Under the pieces are notes generated by a model that did no database searches, was not told the origin of the DNA, and saw only the letters and a program-made list of their open reading frames with translations. A stretch of DNA of 21,841 nt. Origin: a virus. The DNA is taken from IMG/VR virus record IMGVR_UViG_3300050138_000249, positions 1-21,841 of that record. One strand, written 5' to 3'. A program made the position numbers and the translations under genes. Shown piece by piece: positions 2,750-16,823 of the stretch (position 1 is its first letter; the number at the start of each line of letters is the position of its first letter).

Positions 2750-4425
2750 AGAAGGCCAAAGCCTCGGCGCTGATCAGCCTGCGCCGCTTCCCGCAGATGC
2801 GCTCTGATGACGCCGGCAAGTCGCCCCTCCCCGCGCCGCCGCCCATGGCGCCAGGCCTGGCCAAGATGATCGCCAAGGGCGAGGCCCAGGTCCGCATGGA
2901 CGGCTGGCAGAATATCATTAGCGGCGCGGGCGTGGCCGGCCGGGACAAGCGCCTGGGCGCCACGGTCAGTTGGGACGGCATCATGCCCGAGGCCCGGGCG
3001 GAGCAAATCTATTCCGGCTCCAAGCTGGCCCGGCGCATCGCCGAGATCGTGCCGCAGGAGTGCCTCAAGAACGGCATCAAGTTCGAGGGCCTGGAGGAGA
3101 TGACCGAGCCCGTGGAAGAAGAGATGGACCGGCTGAAGTGGGAGGAGCGGTTTTTTGAGGCCGCGGTCTGGGGCAACATCTACGGCGGCAGCGCCATCTT
3201 CATGGCCACGGGCGAAGACCCGGACGACTTCAAGCTGCCGCTGGACCCGCGCAACTTCGACAAGGTGGAAAGCTTGGTGCTCTTCAACCGTTGGGAGCTG
3301 ATGGTACGCTCCACGGACCTGGAGACCGATATCAACGATCCCAACTATGGGCAGCCGAAATACTACTGGCTCACCCCGCGCAAGGGCAACATCTCCACGC
3401 TCTTCACCGTCCGCATCCACCACAGTCGGCTGATCCGCTTCGGCGGCGCGCCCCTGCCCCTGCGCCTAAAGGTCTTCAACCGCTATTGGGACGACTCCAT
3501 CTACACGGGTTGCATCGAGGCCATGAATGACCACGCGCTCAGCCACAGCTCTATCGCCAGCGTGCTACAGGAATACCGCCAGGTTATTTACAAGATCAAG
3601 GAGCTGACCGACGGCCTGAGCTCGGTGGACAGCGCCGCGCTCATGCAACGCCTGGCCACGCTCAACGCCGTGCGGTCCGTGTACGGCGCCTTCTTCCTCG
3701 ACATGGACGAGGAGATGGAGATCAAGAGCGACACGTTCGCAGGCGTGGGCGACATGCTCCAAGCCCTGAAGGAGCGCCTGCAGACCGAGACCGACATCCC
3801 CCACACGGTGCTTTTCAACGAGAGCGGCGGCTCGGCCAAGGGCGGCGGCCTCAGCTCGCCGGGCCAGGATCCCAACGCTAAGACCTGGCTCAGTTTCCTC
3901 AAGGGTAAGCAGCGGAACTACTTCAAGCCGAAGATCGAGCAGCTCCTCGCCGCGATGCTCCAAGCGCCGGCCGGTCCCACCCAGGGCCAGGAGCCCGAGG
4001 GTTGGAAGTGGGACTTCAACAATATCCAGGACATGGACGAGGGCGAGACCGAAGACCTGAAGACGAAGAAGCTGAGCAACGCCCAGAGCTCGCAGGACTT
4101 GGGGATCGACAGCCCGCTGGACACGATGAAGGATCTAAGGCCTGAGAAGTACAGGCAGATGATGCAGGGCACGAGCCCCGACGTTGAGCTGCAGGCCACG
4201 ATGCAGCAGCTCGTGCGCAGCGAGGTGGAGAAGTTCGGCGATCCGTCGATGGCGCCCACCGGCAAGCCTGGCGGCGTGACCATCCCCACCCCGGCCCAGC
4301 CCCTCGTGCGCGAGCGCGACAAGGTGGTCGTGCAGCCGCGTGCAGCCAGCAACAAGGCCATCGCCGGGATGGCGAAGCGCAAGGCCCAGGCCGATGCGAA
4401 GGCGGAGAAAAAGCCCAAGAAATAA
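2746..4425 (+). CDS. Portal protein (DUF1073 / Phage_portal_3 type)
   Basis: The 559-residue protein is expected to form the dodecameric ring at one capsid vertex through which DNA is packaged and ejected. Recognisable segments are SGSKLARRIAEIVPQECLKN (about 91-110), AVWGNIYGGSAIFM, TGCIEAMNDHALSHSSIASV, TVLFNESGGSAKGGGLSSPG and a helix FLKGKQRNYFKPKIEQLLAA, all typical of this portal family. The tail after about residue 430 is variable and ends in a Lys/Ala-rich stretch (KRKAQADAKAEKKPKK), probably disordered. Some relatives carry a C-terminal Acb1-like (anti-CBASS) domain; no HxT pair is visible here. AAGGAG at 2732-2737 precedes the ATG, which overlaps the terminase stop. Confidence 0.9.
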   Translation: MKKAKASALISLRRFPQMRSDDAGKSPLPAPPPMAPGLAKMIAKGEAQVRMDGWQNIISGAGVAGRDKRLGATVSWDGIMPEARAEQIYSGSKLARRIAEIVPQECLKNGIKFEGLEEMTEPVEEEMDRLKWEERFFEAAVWGNIYGGSAIFMATGEDPDDFKLPLDPRNFDKVESLVLFNRWELMVRSTDLETDINDPNYGQPKYYWLTPRKGNISTLFTVRIHHSRLIRFGGAPLPLRLKVFNRYWDDSIYTGCIEAMNDHALSHSSIASVLQEYRQVIYKIKELTDGLSSVDSAALMQRLATLNAVRSVYGAFFLDMDEEMEIKSDTFAGVGDMLQALKERLQTETDIPHTVLFNESGGSAKGGGLSSPGQDPNAKTWLSFLKGKQRNYFKPKIEQLLAAMLQAPAGPTQGQEPEGWKWDFNNIQDMDEGETEDLKTKKLSNAQSSQDLGIDSPLDTMKDLRPEKYRQMMQGTSPDVELQATMQQLVRSEVEKFGDPSMAPTGKPGGVTIPTPAQPLVRERDKVVVQPRAASNKAIAGMAKRKAQADAKAEKKPKK

Positions 4426-4449
4426 CTCTGTAAATAGCTATTTACAGAG
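4426..4449. promoter_or_regulatory. Perfect 24-bp palindrome, probable operator
   Basis: CTCTGTAAATAG is followed immediately by its exact reverse complement, with the centre between 4437 and 4438. It begins right after the portal stop codon and covers the -35 element of the promoter at 4441-4468, the usual geometry for repression. With no loop and no T tract it does not look like a terminator. The binding protein is unknown; the HTH protein at 498-725 is one candidate. Confidence 0.75.
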
Positions 4450-4468
4450 GCCTGGAATCTGGTAGTAT
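4441..4468 (+). promoter_or_regulatory. Sigma-70-like promoter with extended -10
   Basis: TTTACA (4441-4446) matches the -35 consensus at five of six positions. A 16-base spacer follows, then TAGTAT (4463-4468), matching four of six -10 positions, preceded by TG plus one base (extended -10). GGAGGT (4475-4480) and ATG 4486 follow directly, so the transcript leader would be very short. The promoter lies inside an otherwise tightly packed late operon. Confidence 0.65.
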
Positions 4469-4485
4469 CTACGTGGAGGTGCGAC

Positions 4486-5547
4486 ATGGCGAAATCAGCA
4501 GTGCTACAGCGCGTGGCTGTCCGGGCCGAGAAGGTGCGCCTGGACTTCAACGAGAACCACGATGAGCGGGGACGCTTCAGCTCCGGCGCGGTCGGCAGCA
4601 GCTCGTCCACCATCATGGCCAGCAACCACGCCACCAAGATGGGGGCAGAGGCACACGCCATGAAAGAAAGCGCCAGGCACAACGGCCTACACACGGTTTA
4701 CGACAACAAGACCAAGGCTTATGTGAGCTCTTTCCGTGGCGGCAAGGTCGTGCCGGTGAACGCCCAGGAGATGAAGGACCGGGCTAGCCACGCCGGCCTC
4801 ATGCAGATGGAACGCGCGGGCCGGACCAAAGATCGCACGGAGTTCCCCACCAATTTGGCGACGGGTCAACGGGCGCAGGGAAAGTACGGCGCGTCGAAGG
4901 CGACACTGGCGAAAGTCCCGCCCGGCACCAATGCCGCCCAGGGCCGCGCGCGCATCGCCGAGGCCGCGAAGCTCAGCCCGGAGACGCTGGCCAAAGAGCC
5001 GTGGCGCGCCAAGGGCATTCCCACGCTGGGGCATGAGGCGGCGAAGAGCGCAGCGACCACCCCGGCGTCGGGCAAGGGTGGCCGCATCAACCCCACGCCC
5101 GACGAGTTCGCTAAGCACGTCCACGAGAGCAACTTCTCCGTGCTCACGGCCGCCAATCCCGCGAGCCAGACCACGGACAGCGCCACGAACTCCCGGCGCA
5201 TGATGCAAATCTACCACGAGCTGAAGGAACGCGGCGCCACCTACATCCCCACCGTGGGCAAGTACGGCAACAAAGAACCGTCCGTGATGGTGATGCACGA
5301 CGCCAATTTCACCAAAGAACACGCCGAGGAGATGGGGGCCAAATATGGCCAGACTTCGGTGATGCACAGTCTCGCGGGCCAGGGTATCATGCACTACACG
5401 ACCGGCCCGCGCGCCGGCAAGGAGTGGAGCAGCCTGGGCAAGCCCAGTTTCGACCCCAGCAAGACAGACTTTTACACCGGCCACCAAGGGAATCGTTTCA
5501 GTTACGACTTCCCCGACGAGGCCTTCCCCAACGAGAAAGGTGAGTGA
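4486..5547 (+). CDS. HDERGRF-motif protein with DUF3293-like C-terminal domain
   Basis: The 353-residue protein has a short basic helix (1-16) and then KVRLDFNENHDERGRFSSG (16-34), a motif repeated in the MuF protein encoded downstream. A Ser/Ala/Lys-rich low-complexity middle (about 35-205) follows. The compact C-terminal domain (about 205-345) has FSVLTAANPAS (217-227), N235, YIPTVGKYGNKEPSVMV (253-269) and GAKYGQTSVMHS (284-295). This order (TA.NP, N, P.vG, E.S, fGQ..v) matches my memory of DUF3293-type domains, whose biochemical role is not established. A strong GGAGGT precedes the ATG, and the gene has its own promoter and operator. It lies between portal and MuF, where accessory or effector genes are often found. 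The reading frame is solid; the domain call is tentative, and the activity (nuclease, toxin or other) is unknown. Confidence 0.6.
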   Translation: MAKSAVLQRVAVRAEKVRLDFNENHDERGRFSSGAVGSSSSTIMASNHATKMGAEAHAMKESARHNGLHTVYDNKTKAYVSSFRGGKVVPVNAQEMKDRASHAGLMQMERAGRTKDRTEFPTNLATGQRAQGKYGASKATLAKVPPGTNAAQGRARIAEAAKLSPETLAKEPWRAKGIPTLGHEAAKSAATTPASGKGGRINPTPDEFAKHVHESNFSVLTAANPASQTTDSATNSRRMMQIYHELKERGATYIPTVGKYGNKEPSVMVMHDANFTKEHAEEMGAKYGQTSVMHSLAGQGIMHYTTGPRAGKEWSSLGKPSFDPSKTDFYTGHQGNRFSYDFPDEAFPNEKGE

Positions 5548-5551
5548 CGTC

Positions 5552-5719
5552 ATGGCCGACAAAACTCAGGTCCACGAGCACGCCGATATGGCGAACCCCG
5601 AGCACCGCAAGGCGCACGGACTGAAGCTGGAGGGCCGCAAACTCGTTATCGACGACGGGAGCGGCGTGGAGATCGGCGAGCTCAGCGACGACGAGGCGAA
5701 GCGCGCTGGAGTGAAATGA
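5552..5719 (+). CDS. Small acidic/basic 55-residue protein, unknown
   Basis: A short frame begins at ATG 5552, four bases after the previous stop, with AAAGGTGAG upstream, and ends in TGA 5717-5719, overlapping the ATG of the MuF gene in an ATGA. The protein starts MADKTQVHEHADMANPEHRK and continues HGLKLEGRKLVIDDGSGVEI. It is hydrophilic, with no cysteine, signal or membrane segment. Its position between two motif-sharing proteins, and its tight coupling to both, suggest a partner of one of them (an immunity protein or an assembly factor). That is inference from context only. No family was recognised. Confidence 0.75.
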   Translation: MADKTQVHEHADMANPEHRKAHGLKLEGRKLVIDDGSGVEIGELSDDEAKRAGVK

Positions 5720-7104
5720 AAATCCACGATCTAGTCAGGCACGCCAAGCTCAGCCTAGGCCGGAAGCACCGCATCAGAAAACCGACGCGGTTGCAGCCGG
5801 CCTTGGCTATTGAGCTGGCCTACGCCGCGGCCATCCAGCGCCGACGCGATAAGCTCCTGGCCATCATGCAGCGGGCCGTGGGGGCGCGCCTGGAGCAGAT
5901 CAGCAAGTCGGCAGGCATCCGGCTGGACTTTAATGACGCGCATGATGAACGCGGCAGGTTCACTACGTCCGACCATGAGGCGGTAGCGGCGCGATTTGGC
6001 ATCCCCGCTAAGGCCGTGCGCGAAGTGGCGGAGCTTTCAGTGGACCAGCTCCGCGCTAGGTACAAAGAACAGGACCATACTAATAACGGCCAGGCACCGG
6101 AGCCCTTTGTGAGGCACGAGCTTGGCGCGGCGTCCTTACCAGATTGGGGTGACCCGCAAAATGCTTATCTCGAATATCTGCGTGAGATGGACCCCAAAGC
6201 TCTAAAGCTGTCAGAGGGTGCGAACGGCATCCGGCAACATCCCACTTACGAGCGCTATAAGGCCTGGGCCGCAAGTGGCAGCGAGGCACCCTATATCTCC
6301 GTGGGAGAGACGGAAAAAGGCAGCTGGGTGTCGAGCAATCGACGCCGTACACTTGTGGCTCAAGATCTCGGACAGCCCAGCATCAAAGGATGGTTCGGCC
6401 CACACAACAAAGAGACCGGGCTGCCATTGAAGTATGGTGACGTAATGAGGGCGCTCAATGAGCGCGTGCGCCATGACTCTTACGCTTGGGACGAGGAGCT
6501 TGACCGCGCCATCCAGATGGCCCGCGCCCAGTTCAACGGCGTGGAGCCGCCCGAGGACATCTTCAACCTGGCCACGGAGTACGCCCAGCAAACCGGCACG
6601 TTCCAAACGCGCCAGCTCCAGCGCAGCCTGGGCAAGGCCATCGGCGTCAACGTCTTCCTGGACAAGACCGCGCTCCTCAAGCGCATGGGCGCCCACGTCA
6701 AGCAGAACGTGGACCTGATCAGCAGCATTGACGAGGATTATTTTGACGACATCCGCAAGCGCCTGACCACGGGCATCCGGGCCGGCGACCGGGTGGAGAC
6801 GATGCGCGACATGATCGAAGAGCGCTACGATGTGACCCGCTCGCGGGCCGCGCTCATCGCCTGCGACCAGACCATGAAGTTCTACGGCGAGCTTAACCGC
6901 GAGCAGCAAACGGGCCTGGGCATTGACGATTATGTGTGGAACGGCATGTTGGACAATGCCGAACGCGAGATGCACCTCGACCTGGAAGGCGAGCAGTTCA
7001 AGTGGGGCGACCCGCCCGTGACCAACCCCCAGGGTGATTTGAATGAGCCAGGCGGCGACTACCGATGCCGCTGCACAGCGTCTCCGGTACTCCCCCGCTT
7101 CTGA
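5716..7104 (+). CDS. MuF-type minor head protein with internal inserted domain
   Basis: The 462-residue protein is a phage head morphogenesis (Mu gpF / SPP1 gp7-like) protein, a minor component near the portal that assists capsid assembly or is ejected with DNA. Residues 25-62 form an N-terminal helix; the core runs from about 255 to 462. Family signs in the core are DYFDDIRKRLTTGIRAGDRV, SRAALIACDQTMKFYGELNR, NAEREMHLDLEGEQFKWGDP and the terminal GGDYRCRCTASPVLP. The two parts are split by about 190 residues. That insert opens with GIRLDFNDAHDERGRFTTS (67-85) and later has HPTYERYKAWAASGSEAPYI and SNRRRTLVAQDLGQPSIKGW (207-226). This pattern recalls a ParB/sulfiredoxin-fold domain with NRRR in place of the usual GHHR/GRHR. 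The insert DNA (about 5970-6470) looks less G+C-biased than the core. The MuF call is strong; the ParB-like call is tentative. Confidence 0.88.
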   Translation: MKIHDLVRHAKLSLGRKHRIRKPTRLQPALAIELAYAAAIQRRRDKLLAIMQRAVGARLEQISKSAGIRLDFNDAHDERGRFTTSDHEAVAARFGIPAKAVREVAELSVDQLRARYKEQDHTNNGQAPEPFVRHELGAASLPDWGDPQNAYLEYLREMDPKALKLSEGANGIRQHPTYERYKAWAASGSEAPYISVGETEKGSWVSSNRRRTLVAQDLGQPSIKGWFGPHNKETGLPLKYGDVMRALNERVRHDSYAWDEELDRAIQMARAQFNGVEPPEDIFNLATEYAQQTGTFQTRQLQRSLGKAIGVNVFLDKTALLKRMGAHVKQNVDLISSIDEDYFDDIRKRLTTGIRAGDRVETMRDMIEERYDVTRSRAALIACDQTMKFYGELNREQQTGLGIDDYVWNGMLDNAEREMHLDLEGEQFKWGDPPVTNPQGDLNEPGGDYRCRCTASPVLPRF

Positions 7105-7161
7105 CCGCTACCTAGTTATTGATAATTTACGCTTAGGGTATTTAGGACGTAACTTCGTTTC
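7105..7161 (+). promoter_or_regulatory. A+T-rich gap, possible weak promoter
   Basis: These 57 bases are clearly A+T-richer than their flanks. They contain GATAAT (7121-7126, five of six to the -10 consensus) with only a poor -35 counterpart. No good ribosome site precedes ATG 7162. A promoter for the protease-capsid block is possible but not well supported. Confidence 0.25.
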
Positions 7162-8929: not shown

Positions 8930-8971
8930 GACCCGGCTTTCATCTTCGGCTTTCACCCAAGGAGCTCCCCC

Positions 8972-9991
8972 ATGAAGACCAAGATTCGGCTCGACGAGGA
9001 AGTGGTCCAGCGCCACGCCGCCCGGCTGCTGGCCGCGGCCGAAGCCGCTGGCATGCGCTTCGACGAAGGCGAGTCCGTCTTCTTCGCCCGCCAGCTCGAA
9101 CACATCATCGCGCAGGAGTTCGACATCGATCGCCCGGAGCTCCGGGCGCGCGCGGTCATCCCCATCACGATGGAAGGCGACCCCGCCGACCAGACCATCA
9201 CCTACCGCGAGTACGACCGTGTGGGCTTCGCCAAGCTCATCACGGACTACTCGATGGACCTGCCGCGAGTCGATATCACCGGCAAGGAAGTCACCGCCAA
9301 GTACCGCACCTTGGGCGACTCCTACGGCTATAATATCGACGAAGTGGCCGCATCCGCCAAGACGGGCCGGGACCTGGAAGGCCGCCGCGCGGAGATGGCG
9401 CGCGAGGCGCTGCTGCGGCAGGAGAACTACATCCTGCTCAACGGCGACTCCACCCACAACCTGGCCGGCTTCATGAATTTCGCCAGCGTGCCGTTCTACC
9501 TGGCGTCCACGCTGGGCACGGGTGGCAGCCGGGCCTTCACCGCGAAGACCCCGGACCAGATCCTGGCCGACCTCAACGGCTTCGTGAACAGCATCGCGGA
9601 ACTGACCTACGGGATCGAGCAGCCGGACACCCTGCTCACCACCCGCGCGGTCCGTCACCGCGCTTCCACGGCCCGCATCGGCCGGGACTCCAACATGACC
9701 GTGTTGAAGTTCTTCGTGGAGAACAACGACTACATCACCAGCAAGGACGATGTGGAAGTGCTCAACGAGCTGGAGAGCGCGGGCCTGATCGCCGCGGGCT
9801 CGGGCAATAAGAGCACGCGCTCCATCGCCTACCGGCGCGACCCCCTGAAGCTGCGCGCGGACATCCCGCTGGACTTCGACAGCCTGCCGGCCCAGCCCAA
9901 GGGCTTCGAGTGGGTGATCCCCTGCCGCTCCAAGCTGTCCGGTGTGATCTGGACCAAGCCCCTGAGCGCTTGCTACATGGACGGCGTGTAA
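8972..9991 (+). CDS. Major capsid protein (DUF2184, HK97 fold)
   Basis: The 339-residue protein forms the icosahedral shell. The N-terminal 34 residues are helical and charged (MKTKIRLDEEVVQRHAARLL) and could be a scaffold-contacting delta segment. The body has the DUF2184 signature stretches RARAVIPITMEGDPADQTI, YGYNIDEVAASAKTGRDLEG, NYILLNGDSTHNLAGFMNFA and the C-terminal domain LKLRADIPLDFDSLPAQPKG ... GVIWTKPLSACYMDGV. AAGGAG (8959-8964) lies seven bases before the ATG. Codon use is strongly biased to G/C-ending codons, fitting the most abundant virion protein. A strong terminator follows within about 110 bases. Confidence 0.92.
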   Translation: MKTKIRLDEEVVQRHAARLLAAAEAAGMRFDEGESVFFARQLEHIIAQEFDIDRPELRARAVIPITMEGDPADQTITYREYDRVGFAKLITDYSMDLPRVDITGKEVTAKYRTLGDSYGYNIDEVAASAKTGRDLEGRRAEMAREALLRQENYILLNGDSTHNLAGFMNFASVPFYLASTLGTGGSRAFTAKTPDQILADLNGFVNSIAELTYGIEQPDTLLTTRAVRHRASTARIGRDSNMTVLKFFVENNDYITSKDDVEVLNELESAGLIAAGSGNKSTRSIAYRRDPLKLRADIPLDFDSLPAQPKGFEWVIPCRSKLSGVIWTKPLSACYMDGV

Positions 9992-10006
9992 AGAAAACCC
10001 GCACTA

Positions 10007-10078
10007 CCAGGCGATGGCCCCGCCTGGAGCTCCCGGACCTCGAACGTCTACTTCCCGGCCATGGGCGGTGGAACACCG
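10007..10078 (+). other. Structured 3' leader: two hairpins
   Basis: CCAGGCG (10007-10013) pairs with CGCCTGG (10021-10027) across a seven-base loop. CGGTG (10066-10070) pairs with CACCG (10074-10078) across GAA. Neither is followed by a T tract. They stand between the capsid stop and the terminator and might stabilise the capsid mRNA. There is no gene in 9992-10144. Confidence 0.35.
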
Positions 10079-10097
10079 GGGAAGAGCGGTGTGAGGT

Positions 10098-10134
10098 GCG
10101 GCGGGGCTCTCCTTCCCCGCCGCTTTTCTTTTCT
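10098..10134 (+). terminator. Intrinsic terminator after the capsid gene
   Basis: GCGGCGGGG (10098-10106) pairs perfectly with CCCCGCCGC (10115-10123) across an eight-base loop and is followed by TTTTCTTTTCT. This is a textbook rho-independent terminator. The next gene starts only 11 bases later with no room for a promoter, so downstream genes must depend on partial readthrough or antitermination. Confidence 0.85.
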
Positions 10135-10144
10135 GGAGCACCAC

Positions 10145-15738: not shown

Positions 15739-16185
15739 ATGAGCCAGCTACACCAAGTCGATCCGGGGAAGATGATCTTCTCTGTGGGTACCCTGGGGGT
15801 CCCGGTCACCGGCTACGCCAAGGGGACCTTCCTGGAGTTCTCCCGCGACGTGGACGCCTTCGTCAAGTCCGTGGGATCGGACGGGGAGGTCACGCGCGTG
15901 CGCAACCGCAACCGCGCCGGCTCCGTCAAGGTGACGCTCCAGCAGGGCAGCCAGACCAACGCCGCCTTCTCGGCCCTGGCCATCCTGGACGAGCAGAGCG
16001 GCTTGGGCGTCGTGCCCTGCACCTTCATGGACATGAGCGGCCTGCCGGGCCAGGAGACGGTCGCCGCATCCACCACCGGTTGGATCCGCAAGATGCCCGA
16101 CACCACCATGAGCGGCGAAGGCGAAGAGCACCGGGTCTGGATCTTCGATCTGGCCGTCATGCCCATGTTTGTCGGGGGCAACTAA
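15739..16185 (+). CDS. Tail tube protein (DUF3277 family)
   Basis: The 148-residue protein matches the DUF3277 tail tube family in length and pattern: an opening close to FSVGTLGVPVTGYAKGTFLE, then VTRVRNRNRAGSVKVTLQQG, NAAFSALAILDEQSGLGVVP and WIRKMPDTTMSGEGEEHRVW, ending in DLAVMPMFVGGN. It forms the hexameric rings inside the sheath through which DNA passes. ATG 15739 was chosen over the TTG at 15733 because AAAGGAG ends at 15731, seven bases before it. It follows the sheath gene directly and its TAA overlaps the next ATG. Confidence 0.88.
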   Translation: MSQLHQVDPGKMIFSVGTLGVPVTGYAKGTFLEFSRDVDAFVKSVGSDGEVTRVRNRNRAGSVKVTLQQGSQTNAAFSALAILDEQSGLGVVPCTFMDMSGLPGQETVAASTTGWIRKMPDTTMSGEGEEHRVWIFDLAVMPMFVGGN

Positions 16186-16661
16186 TGGCGCGCGGGATGG
16201 TCACCGCGCAGATCGACGGCGAAACCTACCACATCGGCTACCTGCTCACGTCCGAAGCCGTGAAGCTTGCCCTAGAGGTGGCCAAGCGCGCCGCCCCCAT
16301 CATGGGTTCGGGCGCCAAGGGGGTCCTGACGAACCTGGGCGAGGGCGGTGCTGAAAATCTGATGGCGTCCAACGTGAACGACTTCATCAAGAAGCTGGAC
16401 TTGGAAGGCCTGGGCGTGATGGTGGCTGCGGCCATTGAGCCGGCCGAGTTGGAGGCCATCATCCAAAAGCTATGCAGCGTGGCCGTCCCCCATGGCGAGG
16501 GAAACACGACCTATGACGCCTGGTATCAGGGCCGGCCAGGCCACGCGCTCAAAGTGGCGGTCAAGAGCTTCGAGGTGAACTGCAGCGATTTTTTCGCCAG
16601 CGCCGTAAGCCTCGGTGGACTCCTGAAGAAAAAAATTACAACCCCGGCAAAAACTCCGTAA
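16185..16661 (+). CDS. Tail assembly chaperone, zero-frame product
   Basis: This 158-residue protein lies between tube and tape measure, the invariable place of tail assembly chaperones (lambda gpG, P2 gpE). It begins MARGMVTAQIDGETYHIGYL, has a helical middle (SEAVKLALEVAKRAAPIMGS; EPAELEAIIQKLCSVAVPHG) and contains FEVNCSDFFASAVSLGGLLK near the end, which recalls the related family segment where these genes shift frame. It starts in a one-base overlap with the tube stop. Chaperones coat the tape measure while the tube polymerises and are absent from virions. A -1 frame continues openly past its stop (see 16589-16813). Confidence 0.82.
   Translation: MARGMVTAQIDGETYHIGYLLTSEAVKLALEVAKRAAPIMGSGAKGVLTNLGEGGAENLMASNVNDFIKKLDLEGLGVMVAAAIEPAELEAIIQKLCSVAVPHGEGNTTYDAWYQGRPGHALKVAVKSFEVNCSDFFASAVSLGGLLKKKITTPAKTP
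16589..16595 (+). other. Probable -1 ribosomal frameshift site T TTT TTC
   Basis: In the zero frame the codons are GAT TTT TTC, so the heptamer has the canonical X XXY YYZ form and both tRNAs can re-pair after slipping back one base. The -1 frame is open from here to TAG 16811-16813. A run of seven A at 16629-16635 is a second, less regular candidate in the same overlap. Confidence 0.7.
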
Positions 16662-16813
16662 ATTGGTTTATTTGGCGTTTGGTCCGAGCCAATCTGGCCA
16701 CCAAAACGGAGGTTGAGGAGCATTGGACTATTGCCGATGTCTGGGAGGCTCATGAGCTGCTCGACATAGAGAGGGAGAGCCAGGAGTGGCACGAGAAGCA
16801 CCCCAAGAAGTAG
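16595..16813 (+). CDS. Tail assembly chaperone, -1 frame extension
   Basis: The -1 frame adds 72 residues to the first 137 of the chaperone, giving a 209-residue fusion comparable to lambda gpG-T. The added part includes YNPGKNSVNWFIWRLVRANL, then EEHWTIADVWEAHELLDIER and ends WHEKHPKK. Trp/Glu/His-rich helices of this kind (WT..DV.EAHE.LD) are usual in the T-like halves that bind the tape measure. No ribosome site or plausible independent start is visible, so frameshifting is the best explanation. It ends eleven bases before the tape measure start. It has not been shown which slippery site is used. Confidence 0.75.
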   Translation, partial: RQRRKPRWTPEEKNYNPGKNSVNWFIWRLVRANLATKTEVEEHWTIADVWEAHELLDIERESQEWHEKHPKK

Positions 16814-16823
16814 GAGATTTCAC

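Follow-up and report, generated by a model that had tools for sequence, protein, structure and literature searches.

The window analyzed here, the whole 21,841-base contig of an uncultured phage, carries a perfect 24-bp palindrome directly behind the portal gene, and the right arm of this palindrome contains the -35 hexamer of the best promoter match in the contig. We moderately favor reading positions 4426 to 4485 as an internal, repressible promoter of sigma70 type in the late region, whose -35 element is covered by a symmetric operator. The contig, part of a longer virus record, derives from a contractile-tail phage and encodes a terminase, a Phage_portal_3 portal, MuF, a DUF2213 protease, a cement protein, the capsid, a sheath and a baseplate. 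Genes were annotated with two profile libraries, and some tail genes were not scanned in both. Among the tail genes, a tail assembly chaperone (TAC_15) at 16169-16823 is followed by an open out-of-frame extension that reaches the tape measure gene, an arrangement as for programmed frameshifting.

A symmetric palindrome covers the -35 element of a predicted promoter

The palindrome, CTCTGTAAATAGCTATTTACAGAG, consists of two 12-base arms that are 100% complementary with zero spacer, and its first base is the next base after the TAA stop codon of the portal gene. Its core (4429-4446) reads TGTAAA-N6-TTTACA, with AGCT at the centre. It is the top-scoring dyad of the contig: perfect 12-bp arms are expected 0.003 times per window from composition, and an arm length of 12 was reached in one of 200 Markov-1 and one of 300 Markov-2 simulated genomes. 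The palindrome occupies one of few intergenic gaps, and the G+C content around it and the promoter match falls locally from about 62% to 46%. Many repressors act via several operator copies; no further copy with three or fewer mismatches was detected anywhere else in the window. In RNA form, the palindrome folds into a 10-bp stem with an AGCU loop (-9.8 to -11.4 kcal/mol; z, -3.5 to -5.9), the 101-nt local fold around it is unremarkable (z, -1.4), no U-run follows it on the + strand, and Rfam and tRNA scans returned no matches. A zero-spacer centre is unnecessary for an RNA hairpin and suggests a DNA-bound protein dimer.

The -35 hexamer matches the sigma70 consensus at five of six positions, and the -10 hexamer TAGTAT (4463-4468), extended by a TG at 4460-4461, matches at only four of six (Table 1). 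The earlier note had described both the palindrome directly past the portal stop and the use of its right half as the -35 element, followed by a 16-bp spacer, TG-n-TAGTAT, GGAGGT and gene 4486, and both descriptions are accurate. Weighted scoring of both strands ranks 4441-4468 as the best sigma70-like site of the contig. An equal or better site arose in 28 of 300 simulated genomes (mean, 0.10 per genome), and given the -35 hexamer, 0.2% of + strand positions have an equally good -10 at an allowed spacing, as do 0.5% of the sequences obtained by shuffling the downstream gap; the weights were picked post hoc, with the site already seen, so these promoter-score figures serve as a guide. Promoter-like sites with 9 of 12 matches occur by chance about three times per 20 kb of shuffled sequence. 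The predicted transcription start overlaps the Shine-Dalgarno sequence, so the leader would be just 10 to 13 nt long, which is a weakness of the promoter reading.

Table 1. Features of the predicted operator-promoter and its putative transcription unit
Feature	Position	Strand	Basis
Perfect 24-bp palindrome, proposed operator	4426-4449	.	Dyad scan and simulations
-35 hexamer TTTACA, within right arm of palindrome	4441-4446	+	Sigma70 scoring
Extended -10, TGG TAGTAT, 16-bp spacer	4460-4468	+	Sigma70 scoring
Predicted transcription start (G4473, G4475 or G4476)	4473-4476	+	Position relative to -10
Shine-Dalgarno GGAGGT, 5 nt ahead of ATG 4486	4475-4480	+	Sequence
Gene 4486: 353-aa protein, N-terminal DFNENHDERGRF motif, C-terminal DUF3293 (Pfam E 2.8e-11)	4486-5547	+	Profile search
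59-aa ORF, overlaps gene 4486 and MuF gene	5540-5719	+	ORF list
MuF/SPP1 gp7-like minor head protein, motif RLDFNDAHDERGRF	5716-7104	+	Profile search and motif
Major capsid protein, last gene of proposed transcription unit	8972-9991	+	Profile search
Strong intrinsic terminator, 9-pair G+C-only stem plus TTTTCTTTTC	10098-10133	+	Terminator scan

The predicted transcript would extend through the capsid module

From gene 4486 through the capsid gene, no terminator-like site was found on the + strand; GCGGCGGGGCTCTCCTTCCCCGCCGCTTTTCTTTTC, the first strong terminator, is situated downstream of the major capsid gene. Since no terminator precedes 10098 and the ORFs overlap (ORF 5540 with gene 4486, and the MuF gene with ORF 5540), transcription from a promoter at 4441 would take in the entire capsid module. 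The earlier proposal that gene 4486 is a repressible moron with a private promoter survives in part: the operator-over-minus-35 layout and the addition of a gene at this junction are supported, while the terms "private" and "moron" are, for the same reasons, unsupported. Nor are the late genes otherwise all packed by overlap, as had been stated, for there are gaps of 57 nt (7105-7161), 42 nt (8930-8971) and about 150 nt (9992-10144), the last of which contains the terminator. The ORF listed from 10061 probably has its true start at ATG 10145. The gap at 7105-7161 is a second A+T-rich interval, ahead of the DUF2213 protease gene, that has TTATTGATAATTTACGC but is without a dyad; it possibly holds a further promoter.

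Taken as a mechanism, a dimeric helix-turn-helix (HTH) regulator, encoded by either the host or the phage, would bind the palindrome and keep RNA polymerase off. Once the regulator leaves, transcription would begin at about 4475, and the transcript would cover gene 4486, ORF 5540 and the MuF, protease, cement and major capsid genes before ending at 10098-10133. The promoter probably arrived together with gene 4486, a putative tagged virion-cargo gene, between portal and MuF. Promoter activity, its repression and the regulator are what we infer from this arrangement.

Protein 4486 shares an N-terminal motif with MuF

The N-terminus of protein 4486 (EKVRLDFNENHDERGRFSSG) and that of the MuF protein of the same phage (GIRLDFNDAHDERGRFTTS) have the motif DFNxxHDERGRF in common. 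The motif recurs in the viral contig L002, as DFNENHDEHGRF in the gene after MuF (4974-5411) and, in the small gene that separates portal from MuF (3586-3780), as DFNENHAHMD. We read this motif as marking head-associated cargo; it is perhaps a head-targeting tag. Because it is common to the phage's own MuF, a virion-associated protein 4486 becomes likelier, and we infer that it is probably a cargo protein located in the virion. The contrary suggestion, that gene 4486 is something other than a simple virion gene, fits poorly with a motif found both in MuF and in the L002 gene beside MuF. DUF3293, a domain of unknown function whose profile proved too divergent for scanning viral contigs, is present in 34 of 398 Pseudomonadota genomes. 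A single-sequence structure model of the DUF3293 part of protein 4486 was poor (pLDDT, 47), no solved structure of a relative was found, and our literature search found no paper naming DUF3293 or DERGRF.

The portal/MuF junction differs among distant relatives

Searches for close relatives with the portal, gene 4486, TerL and major capsid protein gave either nothing or full-length matches with at most 37% identity. We compared 13 relatives, all of them distant: L057-L066 are ten regions from named phages, and L002, L015 and L018 are viral contigs. Twelve of these are without a motif-bearing gene at the portal/MuF junction. The exception is L002, whose tagged gene there encodes 64 aa, lacks DUF3293 and is much shorter than gene 4486, and L015 carries an unrelated 118-aa GSGNF gene in this position. 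The portal stop is overlapped by the next structural gene in L057, L059, L060, L064 and L065, and in SEN34 (L066) that gene begins 16 bases past the stop. In six of the 13, therefore, the portal stop and the next structural gene either overlap or are no more than about 20 bases apart, and in five of the six that gene has a head or minor capsid name. The MuF frame of L018 starts about 170 bases past the portal gene; at the junction, the annotation of PEi21 (L062), a Vibrio phage (L063) and L061 shows genes on the reverse strand, and L058 is unannotated in this interval. The differing genes indicate that the portal/MuF junction accepts variable insertions, and the promoter together with gene 4486 looks like one such insertion.

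The search for the palindrome in related phages, which the earlier note had recommended as a check, found it in none of these 13 relatives, all distant, and none has a dyad with 10-bp arms after the portal gene. FZ14 (L058) has 9-bp arms with a 6-nt loop spanning the portal stop, L063 combines 8-bp arms with a loop of 5 nt, and L002 has a 7-bp dyad within an ORF. Beyond the relatives, an exact 20-mer of the palindrome has no match in viral contigs, and the exact 18-bp core occurs once in 2.9 million viral contigs, in L068, a phage contig with 30% G+C. The core in L068 sits between two divergent promoters, and each arm supplies the -35 box of one of them, giving TTTACA-17-TGGTATAAT on either side, the same layout as in our contig. 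One chance copy of the core is unsurprising in so A+T-rich a contig, yet its arrangement is operator-like. The divergent promoters of this A+T-rich phage contig (1444-1507) are perfectly symmetric around TGTAAATAGCTATTTACA.

A relaxed form of the 24-mer has one match in viral contigs, a terminator, and a search of 85,000 genomes found the arms CTCTGTAAA/TTTACAGAG 17 times, mostly as terminator hairpins. One of the 17 lies immediately upstream of bchE in Roseivivax. CTGTAAA-N6-TTTACAG is rare, being present in 9 of 398 Pseudomonadota genomes, compared with 2 for a reversed-pattern control, and such sites also precede genes for a methionine gamma-lyase and an E1-alpha dehydrogenase. A BLASTN search of plasmids and phages with the promoter region returned nothing convincing.

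Candidate regulators and alternative readings

The protein encoded at 498-725, which had been put forward as the binder, is a plain XRE-type HTH domain, and no second operator copy lies near or upstream of its gene: the best core in positions 1 to 500 has 4 mismatches in 12 bases. Its role as the repressor is therefore unsupported. In the region upstream of this gene, a 17-nt inverted repeat (88%; 162-178/355-371) with ACAGAGGT flanks an A+T-rich interval at 180-354. LexA and CRP/FNR sites were rejected for the palindrome on account of their different spacing.

The palindrome might instead work as RNA: in a polycistronic late mRNA, its hairpin behind the portal stop would insulate translation or protect an RNA end, and the promoter match would be accidental. 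Such a role is consistent with the stable fold of the palindrome, with its start at the base next to the stop codon, and with the relaxed matches in other genomes, which are mostly 3' (terminator) hairpins; but symmetry through the centre is superfluous for a hairpin, the + strand is without a U-run, the wider fold is unremarkable, and the contig's best promoter match falls exactly on the palindrome. We consider this reading unlikely. That palindrome and hexamers came together by chance, without function, is highly improbable given the joint rarity of the dyad, the best promoter match and the gap location, even if the dyad was found in none of the relatives, all of them distant.

It is quite unlikely that gene 4486 is a moron that is expressed by itself, either early or in the lysogen, with the 498-725 protein as its phage repressor. 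Its rarity at the junction in the distant relatives, its candidate own promoter with the best consensus match of the contig, and the presence of an XRE-type HTH gene would agree with a moron, yet gene 4486 has no terminator behind it, the downstream ORFs overlap, no operator copy lies near the HTH gene, its base composition resembles that of its neighbors, and the annotated parts of the fragment include no lysogeny gene. The virion-type motif common to MuF likewise argues against a prophage-expressed, virion-dispensable gene. We also regard it as decidedly unlikely that the operator serves a Fis-type HTH regulator of the host (TyrR/PhhR if this is a gammaproteobacterium, PpsR/CrtJ if it is a phototrophic proteobacterium), which would tie late phage genes to the amino-acid or light/oxygen state of the host. 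The core matches the TyrR consensus at all 12 positions (PMC4374768) and fits TGT-N12-ACA (PMC5362033), and the sites before bchE and the two Pseudomonadota genes point the same way; against this, the consensus is short and known operators are many, so a chance match is plausible, and the second CrtJ palindrome over the -10 is missing. No report of TyrR or PpsR control of a phage was found in the titles and abstracts searched. We consider it very unlikely that a TyrR- or PpsR-type metabolic or light/oxygen repressor of the host directly gates the capsid module via an operator that fits its consensus perfectly; if it does, virion assembly would be tied to host physiology.

Phages carry switches of this general kind, and judged from its sequence the operator-promoter at 4426-4485 is a good candidate for an ordinary one. 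If real, it would amount to a promoter midway through a head-gene operon that came in along with a cargo gene and can be switched on its own, and expression of the capsid module could be uncoupled from that of the packaging and portal genes. The identity of the regulator would tell whether late timing follows the phage or the host.

Comparison with known systems

Lambdoid morons are extra genes with their own promoters between late genes. Gene 4486 resembles them as an extra gene with a candidate own promoter among late genes but differs in having no terminator and in carrying a head-protein motif. The late promoters of P2-type phages are bound by Ogr/Delta, which activate from a TGT-N12-ACA dyad near -55. 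A TGT-N12-ACA dyad in a phage late region is common to both, whereas the dyad here would be centred near -37, on the -35 element. Activation of the Ogr type was rejected, because transcription starting 55 bp past the dyad centre would begin inside gene 4486.

TyrR boxes follow the consensus TGTAAA-N6-TTTACA (PMC4374768), and we required at least 10 of 12 matches. The core at 4429-4446 has all 12 consensus bases and the same spacing as a strong box; unlike a strong box, the phage symmetry extends to 24 bp, and no TyrR or aromatic amino-acid gene is known here. Repression from an operator that lies over the promoter is exemplified by CrtJ, whose upper palindrome at bchC, TGT-N12-ACA, spans -47 to -30 (PMC5362033). 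In bchC, a second palindrome covers the -10 element, whereas TGT-N12-ACA occurs in a single instance in our whole window, and the genes concerned here are phage late genes. The core nevertheless resembles the upper bchC palindrome: it fits the CrtJ/PpsR pattern, spans the -35 element and, at about -46 to -29, lies at the same distance from its predicted start.
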